64,000 nt of DNA from Elusimicrobiota bacterium (lineage in GTDB: Bacteria; Elusimicrobiota; UBA8919), in assembly GCA_016928195.1 (NCBI GenBank), contig JAFGLF010000044.1, forward strand, positions 310,001 through 374,000, written 5' to 3'. The notes under the pieces were generated by a model, which saw nothing but the letters and a program-made list of their open reading frames with translations, had not been told where the DNA came from and did not search any database. The translations under genes and the position numbers were made by a program. Below are positions 30,345 to 39,060 of this stretch, one piece after another. Numbering within the stretch: the stretch's first letter is position 1; every line of letters begins with the position of its first letter.

Positions 30345-30445
30345 CAGTAAACCTGATAACAGCGATGAAACTAACGATAACAGCGATAGAACATATTCAG
30401 CAGTATCGCTGTAATCTTTTCCTTTTATCACTGTAATTGTATTCT
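30345..30445. repeat. GATAACAGCGAT / ATCACTGTAAT inverted repeat
   Basis: CTGATAACAGCGATGAAACTAACGATAACAGCGAT is mirrored by AGTATCGCTGTAATC and TTATCACTGTAATTG. The same family is seen at 1785-1870 and 38780-38876. Confidence 0.65.
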
Positions 30446-30451
30446 TATAAA

Positions 30452-30471
30452 GCCGGCGAGTGGGTTCGAAC
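30452..30471 (-). pseudogene. 3' fragment of a tRNA, downstream of tRNA-Thr
   Basis: On the minus strand this reads GTTCGAACCCACTCGCCGGC, closely resembling the T-arm and acceptor of the intact tRNA-Thr at 30492 (GTTCGAGTCCACTCATCGGC). Only the 3' part is present. Confidence 0.55.
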
Positions 30472-30475
30472 TTCA

Positions 30476-30576
30476 CCCCGCACCTTATCAGAGCCGATGA
30501 GTGGACTCGAACCACCAACCTATCGCTTACGAAGCGATTGCTCTGCCGTTGAGCTACATCGGCATAAGGTGCGGGG
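30476..30576. repeat. 13-bp inverted repeat enclosing tRNA-Thr
   Basis: CCCCGCACCTTAT (30476-30488) and ATAAGGTGCGGGG (30564-30576) are perfect complements. One arm touches the tRNA 5' end directly. The other is separated from the discriminator base by three bases, so the precursor acceptor stem could extend by 13 base pairs. Confidence 0.85.
30492..30563 (-). tRNA. tRNA-Thr (CGU)
   Basis: A 72-nt cloverleaf: acceptor GCCGATG/CATCGGC, anticodon stem ATCGC/GCGAT, loop TTCGTAA (anticodon CGT), T-arm TGGTGGTTCGAGTCCACT, discriminator T. It is immediately flanked by the inverted repeat described at 30476-30576. Confidence 0.95.
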
Positions 30577-30579
30577 CAA

Positions 30580-30605
30580 GCCGACCTATCGTTTGCTACA
30601 TCGGC
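30580..30605 (-). pseudogene. Internally deleted tRNA-Thr remnant
   Basis: On the minus strand, GCCGATGTAGC (identical to the 5' end of tRNA-Thr CGU) is joined by AAA to CGATAGGTCGGC, which resembles the 3' side of the anticodon arm of the same tRNA. The ends GCCGA and TCGGC can pair. It is too short to be a tRNA. Confidence 0.55.
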
Positions 30606-30618
30606 ATTACAAAAAAAA

Positions 30619-30691
30619 TGCCACGGGACGGAATCGAACCGCCGACACGTTGATTTTCAGTCAACTGCTCTACCGACTGAGCTACCGTGGC
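30619..30691 (-). tRNA. tRNA-Phe (GAA)
   Basis: A 73-nt cloverleaf: acceptor GCCACGG/CCGTGGC, anticodon stem GTTGA/TCAAC, loop CTGAAAA (anticodon GAA), T-arm with GGTTCGATTCC, discriminator A. A consensus promoter lies 15 bases upstream. Confidence 0.96.
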
Positions 30692-32927: not shown

Positions 32928-33168
32928 AAGCAGTTTGCTCACTTCCCTCTTCGCTTCATTTCATTTCGCTTCGGAGGGAGAGAGATTCGGTCACAAGTTG
33001 CTTCACTGACGTTCAGCACTCGCGACCCCGCCTCGCCGTCTTCGCCTGTCCGATGTTAATCGGACAACTCAGACATGGCTCCGGCTTTCGAATCTTCACG
33101 TGAGCAAAGCAGTTTGCTCACTTCCCTCTTCGCTTCATTTCATTTCGCTTCGGAGGGAGAGAGATTCG
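32928..33168 (-). mobile_element. tRNA-Ser-associated structured element, copy A
   Basis: A 62-nt direct repeat (32928-32989 and 33107-33168) contains the 3' part of tRNA-Ser (from CGAATC in the T-loop onward) plus its trailer. It flanks a 117-nt unique core. The core carries a 25-nt block (33023-33047) and a 29-nt block (33066-33094), both identical to copy B at 38877-39060. It also has a 7-bp hairpin (33048-33065), and a 9-bp hairpin (33100-33121) that runs into the second repeat. The layout matches an att-flanked island reduced to about 180 bp. No integrase or reading frame is present, so mobility is inference. Confidence 0.6.
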
Positions 33169-33898: not shown

Positions 33899-33908
33899 AA
33901 CTTTTAAA

Positions 33909-33996
33909 CGGAAGGAGCAGGATTCGAACCTGCGGTCCACGTAAAGCGGACTCCGGTTTTCAAGACCGGTGCAATCAACCACTCTGCCATCCTTCC
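33909..33996 (-). tRNA. tRNA-Ser (UGA)
   Basis: An 88-nt class II tRNA: acceptor GGAAGGA/TCCTTCC, anticodon stem CCGGT/ACCGG, loop CTTGAAA (anticodon TGA), long variable arm GTCCGCTTTACGTGGAC and T-arm GCAGGTTCGAATCCTGC. It lies between the GIY-YIG gene and the methyltransferase gene. Confidence 0.95.
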
Positions 33997-34011
33997 ACTC
34001 AGTTTTATCTA

Positions 34012-34254
34012 CTATCCTTCCAATTTTTTCTTAAGCCATTCTCTACCTACACCTTTTAAATATAATTCTCTTTTTCTGGCTTCTGTATAAGTATATACTT
34101 CCTCTATATATATTAACTTGACAGGTCTGCGACTCTTTGTAGTTTTAACTTTTCCATTATTATGTGCTTGAATCCTGCTTTTTATATCTCGTGTAGAACC
34201 AACATATAACTTATTATCAACACATCTTAGCACATATACAATGTATCTTTTCAT
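34012..34254 (-). CDS. GIY-YIG domain protein, UPF0213/SLX1-like
   Basis: This 80-residue protein starts at MKRYIVYVLRC (34254). The frame extends upstream through a broken tRNA and palindromes that are not part of the family. The GIY-YIG nuclease fold is visible as VYVLRC, LYVGSTRDIKSRIQAHN and a C-terminal EARKRELYLKGV helix with the usual acidic residue. The small stand-alone members of this family have no firm cellular role. No ribosome-binding site is seen before the ATG, and the preceding bases are repeat-derived. Confidence 0.85.
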   Translation of the reverse strand: MKRYIVYVLRCVDNKLYVGSTRDIKSRIQAHNNGKVKTTKSRRPVKLIYIEEVYTYTEARKRELYLKGVGREWLKKKLEG

Positions 34255-34269
34255 TTTTAAAGCGGTTTT

Positions 34270-34447
34270 TCCGCCACAGGCGGACCCGCCGAGGCGGGCA
34301 AGACCGGCGCAATCAACCACTCGGCCACGCCTCCACTTCGTTCCGTCTTTGTACAGGATGCGGTTGCCGGGGTGCTCACTGTCTCGCACCCATCGCTAAT
34401 CCCGTGCTCCTTGTTCGTCGCACAGCGATCCACTCGGCCACGCCTCC
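34270..34447 (-). pseudogene. Broken tRNA-Ser: duplicated 5' ends, 3' half replaced by palindromes
   Basis: At 34299-34334 the minus strand carries the 5' half of a tRNA-Ser through the anticodon triplet (ending CCGGTCTTG), matching 31 of 36 bases of tRNA-Ser UGA. The sequence then changes to CCCGCCTCGGCGGG and TCCGCCTGTGGCGGA hairpins (34270-34298) instead of the rest of the anticodon loop. The first 18 bases (GGAGGCGTGGCCGAGTGG) occur again at 34430-34447, separated by a 95-base hairpin-rich insert. No complete tRNA can be assembled. The intact promoter at 34482-34510 points at it. Confidence 0.65.
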
Positions 34448-38876: not shown

Positions 38877-39060
38877 ATTGGGCAGGGAAGGATTCGGTCA
38901 CACATAAATATCCTGACGGATATTTTGTTCGACCCCGCCTCGCCGTCTTCGCCTCCCCGATATGTATCGGGGAACTCAGACATGGCTCCGGCTTTCGAAT
39001 CCTCACGCAAGCCAAGCAGTTGGCTTGCTCCCTTAAAACAATTGGGCAGGGAAGGATTCG
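38877..39060 (-). mobile_element. tRNA-Tyr-associated structured element, copy B
   Basis: A 20-nt direct repeat ATTGGGCAGGGAAGGATTCG (38877-38896 and 39041-39060) corresponds to the 3' end of tRNA-Tyr from the T-loop CGAATC onward plus three trailer bases. It flanks a 144-nt core. The core has an 8-bp perfect hairpin with TGAC loop (38906-38925), the 25-nt block (38930-38954), a 7-bp hairpin (38955-38972), the 29-nt block (38973-39001) and a 9-bp hairpin (39007-39028). Block sequences are identical to copy A while hairpin arms differ in compensating pairs. No protein is encoded. Confidence 0.6.

Follow-up and report, generated by a model that had tools for sequence, protein, structure and literature searches.

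The tRNA-Thr(CGU) gene of the window, i.e. the whole stretch of 64,000 nucleotides of an Elusimicrobiota contig analysed here, lies within a perfect inverted repeat and has pieces of tRNA outside both repeat arms, which raises the question whether this arrangement serves tRNA maturation or is left from an insertion. The intact inner gene (30492-30563, minus strand) was found by ARAGORN (tRNA-Thr(CGT), 30491-30563), by Rfam (tRNA-Thr, 30492-30563; 69.6 bits), and in the tRNA inventory of the source genome, which contained Thr genes for the anticodons CGU, UGU, and GGU, the inner copy being the only Thr(CGU) found. On the forward strand, CCCCGCACCTTAT (30476-30488) and ATAAGGTGCGGGG (30564-30576) form a perfect 13-bp inverted repeat (13/13 pairs). 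Read on the minus strand, CCCCGCACCTTAT is the arm on the tRNA 5' side (30564-30576) and ATAAGGTGCGGGG that on the 3' side (30476-30488); the 5' end of the tRNA touches its arm directly, three bases (CTG) separate the discriminator from the other arm, and the 75 bp between the arms contain only the tRNA. No further copies of the arm sequence, allowing up to two mismatches, occurred elsewhere in the window. In the RNA fold, the arms continued the acceptor stem, giving a single helix of 20 bp with a 4-nt bulge at the 3' side (fold including the arm helix, -76.5 kcal/mol; z = -5.8 versus shuffles), so that both the armed tRNA-Thr(CGU) and the bulged helix described in an earlier note on this DNA were confirmed. 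The armed tRNA-Thr is a real feature, neither an ordinary RNA structure nor an ordinary repeat; its arms are not there by chance, as the same arms recur at C68:48455-48559 in the same genome and at 41 places in a collection of species genomes. Just downstream of the nested tRNA (30355-30420), GATAACAGCGAT repeats were present in direct and inverse orientation.

The tRNA fragments that the earlier note had seen outside both arms proved to be, together, the two halves of another tRNA-Thr. In minus-strand order, tRNA-Phe(GAA) (30691-30619) is followed by GCCGATGTAGC-AAACGATAGGTCGG (30605-30581), CTTG, the arm CCCCGCACCTTAT (30576-30564), tRNA-Thr(CGU) (30563-30492), CTG, the arm ATAAGGTGCGGGG (30488-30476), TGAA, and GTTCGAACCCACTCGCCGGCT (30471-30451). 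The 5' part of the outer tRNA-Thr (30581-30605, minus strand), made up of GCCGATGTAGC and AAACGATAGGTCGG, contains AGGTCGG as do the resident Thr genes of relatives, and its 3' part (30451-30471, minus strand) covers the T loop to the discriminator and agrees with the 3' end that the resident tRNA-Thr(CGU) has at the syntenic site in relatives; the D arm is missing, as is most of the anticodon arm. The tRNA-Phe gene (30619-30691, minus strand) marks the syntenic position in seven relatives (G001-G006 of the same family and G008 of the same order), in each of which it is followed by a single intact, armless tRNA-Thr(CGU); in G001, G002, G003, G005, and G008, the next gene starts like the downstream open reading frame of the window. 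The resident Thr gene ends with CCACTCGCCGGCT in five relatives, exactly as the outer 3' fragment does, and the inner copy ends with CCACTCATCGGCT, indicating that the outer gene was inherited and that the inner gene is the newcomer. Indeed, the inner Thr gene is further from the resident one than the decaying outer copy is. The outer 5' end (GCCGATG) is closer to the inner copy than to the residents of most relatives (GCCGGCG), so that some gene conversion has to be assumed. The arms and the tRNA thus behave as one cassette within a tRNA gene of the same isotype, which supports the suggestion of the earlier note that they are a trace of the same insertion process, and an insertion very probably replaced the resident tRNA-Thr gene. 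As to the same syntenic region in relatives, Thr-like pseudo-tRNAs with a D-loop palindrome lie between tRNA-Phe and the intact tRNA-Thr in G002 (L234) and G005 (L238), giving a broken and an intact Thr copy without CCCCGCACC arms; in G003 (L236), the 3' end of tRNA-Phe occurs twice more in tandem after tRNA-Phe, with a short spacer.

A second nested case was found in the same genome, where tRNA-Lys(CUU) lies between CCCCGCACCTTT and AAAGGTGCGGGG (C68:48455-48559) and sits in the T loop of an outer tRNA-Lys. The halves of this outer gene are those of the resident Lys(CUU) ahead of Leu(UAG) in G002, G005, and G006; the inner Lys differs from the resident all through the acceptor and T stems. 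In addition, a small palindrome (TCCGCCTCAGGCGGA) is present in the anticodon region of the outer Lys. In both cases, the decaying outer copy is closer to the resident than the inner gene is, which argues against an in-place duplication, whereby a hairpin element in a tRNA gene would have received a copy of the intact tRNA in its loop by template switching or gene conversion, without any tRNA-bearing unit travelling.

Similar cassettes were retrieved from distant bacteria. When the species-genome collection, comprising 84,980 genomes, was scanned once for the arms, with one free position, and for a T-loop motif, 95 loci were obtained, 41 of which had a tRNA between the arms according to ARAGORN; the loci without an inner tRNA were mostly chance matches, in which the variable position did not pair, or else pairs of arms enclosing sequence of other kinds. 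Nearly all of the 41 armed tRNAs belonged to Patescibacteria (Uhrbacteria, Doudnabacteria, Portnoybacteria, Moranbacteria, Liptonbacteria, Saccharibacteria, and others), those beyond being from two Omnitrophota, one Elusimicrobia (UBA5214; the same element as in G011), and one unplaced bacterium, and thirteen isotypes were represented. Together with the two cases of the source genome, this gave 43 cases, a number higher than that of independent events, as some are related pairs; the outside cases all came from metagenome-assembled genomes. The arms are rare overall; arm pairs with loops of 62-92 bases were found in four of 287 genomes of one phylum (12 elements, five with a tRNA), and a reversed control pattern gave no matches in the same 287 genomes. 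Arm position 4, free in the search pattern, formed a Watson-Crick pair in 42 of the 43 cases (A-T in 39, C-G in two, and T-A in one). Similarly, other positions left free by the pattern were paired in most cases, namely position -1 in 41/43, position 9 in 40/43, and position -2 in 37/43, C-G and T-A alternatives included for the latter. Pairing is thus kept across distant bacteria despite changes in the arm sequence. The earlier note had proposed this as a check, and such conservation is expected of the termini of a mobile unit.

The conserved pairing, together with the continuous and stable helix, would also be in line with a pre-tRNA processing device, in which the long helix would guide or obstruct RNase P and the maturation of the 3' end and would have been retained for this purpose. 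However, the spacing between arms and tRNA varies, other cassettes having leaders and trailers of differing length, the same arms also enclose non-tRNA DNA, and the orthologous genes of all seven relatives are armless at the syntenic site, an outcome that the earlier note had named as a refutation and that applies at this phylogenetic range. Its suggestion that the arms hinder or direct RNase P and 3' processing is therefore unsupported, the tight abutment not being conserved and the relatives being armless, and a processing device is very improbable. As to the non-tRNA sequences found between arm pairs, G011 (L034-L048) contains at least 13 short elements with CCCCGCACCTT arms and very different interiors, only one of which holds a tRNA.

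The insertion reading is further characterized by the relationship between the inner and the outer genes. As most outer genes are decayed, mechanical rejoining gave a clean tRNA with the same anticodon in no more than three or four cases; the analysis therefore relied on alignment and permutation, comparing the sequences that flank the arms with 135 tRNAs, not including the inner gene. The best isotype of the outer gene equalled that of the inner one in 32 of the 43 cases (label permutations, mean 7.4 and maximum 17 in 10,000), and the flanks aligned better with the same strand in 42/43; the inner isotype was not top-scoring for the other 11 outer genes, several of which are decayed. The outer genes are broken within or close to the T, anticodon, and D loops. 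Upon rejoining, the outer genes of L090 (Arg GCG), L104 (Lys CUU), and L105 (Gln CUG) gave the inner anticodon, and that of L114 gave Val CAC, matching the inner anticodon, as one among several calls. That some outer genes are well formed when rejoined (L090, L104, and L105) could mean that the outer gene is functional, the armed insert being intron-like and its removal joining the outer halves into a second tRNA. This is very improbable, as the outer tRNA of the window is without D arm and retains little of the anticodon arm, other outer genes carry further palindromes, and Rfam revealed no group I or II intron match in the window.

Multiple nesting occurs in L162 of Uhrbacteria (reverse strand, approximately 2075-2625), where three tRNA-Thr cassettes are nested inside a fourth Thr gene, the outermost being TTCCGCACCTTTCTTG-Thr-TGGAAAGGTGTGGGA, the middle one CCCCGCACCATAT-Thr-ATGGTGCGTGG, and the innermost TCCCGCACCTTTCTTG-Thr-TGGAAAGGTGCGGGA. 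The first and third cassettes have leader, tRNA, and trailer in common, which demonstrates that arms and tRNA were copied together at this locus. The Met cassettes L079 and L113, from two Uhrbacteria genomes, have nearly the same leader with other tRNA cargo. The occurrence of the same leader-tRNA-trailer unit twice at one locus further weakens in-place duplication. From the latter, same isotype and strand would follow automatically; arm pairs do exist around other sequences, and in L104, the inner tRNA shows no difference from the outer one outside the T loop. In-place copying is thus possible for some cases, such as L104, and as the general explanation it is unlikely. No description of same-isotype tRNA-in-tRNA nesting was found in the literature searched, which covered few subscription papers and preprints.

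Compared with known element families, the cassette is to be filed with the gene-restoring, tRNA-targeting elements, and it is not of the MITE, RAYT, integrase, or intron family, as each of these fails on at least one tested feature. Terminal inverted repeats common to several copies, as in MITEs or other terminal-inverted-repeat elements, were present, but the interiors differ, and neither a homologous interior nor a transposase-bearing parent with the same ends was found. TTTA or TAAA occurred on both sides of some intergenic copies and at none of the tRNA insertions, target-site duplications being inconsistent among copies. For G011, an autonomous element bearing these arms was rejected, as single-arm sites were found among host-like genes. 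A Y1/RAYT transposase was rejected as mover, since the Y1 genes are not flanked by these hairpins and are missing from two carrier genomes. A group I intron in a tRNA was rejected too, in view of the lack of Rfam matches besides tRNA and of the incomplete outer gene, and four IMG/VR matches, all without tRNA, were taken as chance with respect to a viral origin. Integrative elements use tRNA genes as attachment sites, restore the 3' end, leave a displaced fragment, and carry an integrase. Like these, the cassette of the window is inserted in a tRNA gene, restores the gene, and leaves a displaced fragment; unlike these, it supplies the whole tRNA instead of only the 3' part, displaces both outer halves, and consists of approximately 100 bp without a protein gene, no integrase being present between the arms, so that a tRNA-targeting integrative element was rejected. 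Repetitive hairpin-forming elements are known in sponge mitochondria (PMC2800124). These, as well as MITEs and REP/BIME, resemble the cassettes in being short and hairpin-forming, with conserved stems and variable loops, but none is described in that paper as carrying a same-isotype tRNA into a tRNA gene (PMC2800124). In Caldiarchaeum, a putative mobile element has disrupted a tRNA-Thr locus, where a tRNA fragment was left and a functional Thr gene lies close by (PMC3293823). This archaeal locus resembles the window in its disrupted tRNA-Thr with leftover fragment and functional Thr gene, but involves a 1.8-kb element with recombinase and spliced introns, without arms around the tRNA.

As to a possible driver, a nuclease gene characteristic of a GIY-YIG homing element is absent from the armed cassette and present at other tRNA loci, both in the same genome and in others. 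Indeed, no transposase or nuclease was found in the armed cassette of the window, and no GIY-YIG gene is adjacent to it. Elsewhere in the window (33908-34446, minus strand), two broken 5' copies of tRNA-Ser, palindromes, a GIY-YIG gene, and an intact tRNA-Ser(UGA) occur in a row. Here, a broken 5' part of tRNA-Ser(UGA) (34299-34335, minus strand; alignment score 49 versus a shuffle maximum of 23), with palindromes following at its anticodon loop, precedes the small nuclease gene (34012-34254, minus strand; PF01541, 66.6 bits, E 2.4e-18), directly after which the intact tRNA-Ser(UGA) is located (33909-33996, minus strand; ARAGORN and Rfam). Four of the five small GIY-YIG genes of the source genome lie approximately 38-112 nt upstream of a same-strand tRNA (Ser UGA, Pro GGG, Ala CGC, and Gln CUG), and 23 of the 51 small GIY-YIG genes examined have a tRNA within 260 nt, versus an expectation of one to two per cent, estimated by the author from tRNA density. 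The order broken tRNA, GIY-YIG gene, intact same tRNA was found at about nine loci, one of them in the window, involving Ser(UGA), Pro(GGG), Leu(CAA), Gln(CUG), Tyr(GUA), Arg(UCU), and Cys(GCA), further Ile(UAU) with a CAU-like outer gene, and Ser(GGA) by eye. The opposite order, with an intact tRNA, a GIY-YIG gene, and a 3' fragment of that tRNA, was found for Glu(UUC) and Gly(UCC), and in L316 both outer halves of Leu(CAA) enclose hairpins, the nuclease, and the intact Leu(CAA). At L310, the outer gene has a CAU anticodon loop and the inner one is tRNA-Ile(UAU); if the outer gene were tRNA-Ile2, the codon would be the same and the anticodon different. As a precedent, SegB of T-even phages, a free-standing homing endonuclease of the GIY-YIG type encoded among tRNA genes, promotes the inheritance or the amplification of its tRNA segment through recombination (PMC2988022; PMC13096335). 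It is like the present loci in that a GIY-YIG gene occurs among tRNA genes, and unlike the window in that it belongs to phage tRNA clusters, with the nuclease gene between tRNAs and no armed cassette in a split same-isotype tRNA; the cassette of the window, in turn, has no nuclease.

These data are best explained by a cassette, consisting of the arms CCCCGCACCTT and AAGGTGCGGGG around a complete tRNA-Thr(CGU), that entered the resident tRNA-Thr(CGU) near the T arm and broke it, the cassette tRNA taking over its function and probably its transcription unit too. The insertion may be tolerated because the cassette restores the tRNA that it destroys, acting as replacement cargo, and the same-strand placement suggests that the resident promoter serves the inner tRNA. 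Small homing-type nucleases of the GIY-YIG family, many of which are encoded between the broken and the intact copy of one tRNA, might cleave tRNA genes and thereby open sites for such units, the armed cassette being a form without nuclease, mobilized in trans or through recombination. That these enzymes drive cassette insertion is a tentative proposal; the explanation as a whole, i.e. an armed cassette that broke and replaced the resident tRNA-Thr(CGU), with this driver included, is considered likely. A class of tRNA-gene-invading, gene-replacing elements may exist, of which the armed cassette would perhaps be a nuclease-less member. Tentative as well is the extension to widespread break-and-replace mobile elements in uncultured bacteria, autonomous with GIY-YIG and non-autonomous as arms plus tRNA, replacing host tRNA genes one after another.

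The tolerance of elements that enter tRNA genes is ascribed to their restoring the end of the gene. Here, a tRNA gene that is often the only one of its kind is destroyed by an insert of approximately 100 bp, which puts a complete copy of its own in its place; this has happened repeatedly and across many lineages. This provides a concrete route for tRNA gene turnover, by which a new copy arises and the old one becomes a pseudogene. It also suggests where tRNA fragments of Patescibacteria and Elusimicrobiota genomes may come from, and it gives the numerous small GIY-YIG genes therein a role that can be tested. Lastly, the final 19 nt of tRNA-Ser(GCU) and tRNA-Tyr are repeated exactly approximately 150-180 bp downstream of each gene, and these repeated 3' ends (32971-32989 and 38878-38896 in the window) look like attachment-site scars.
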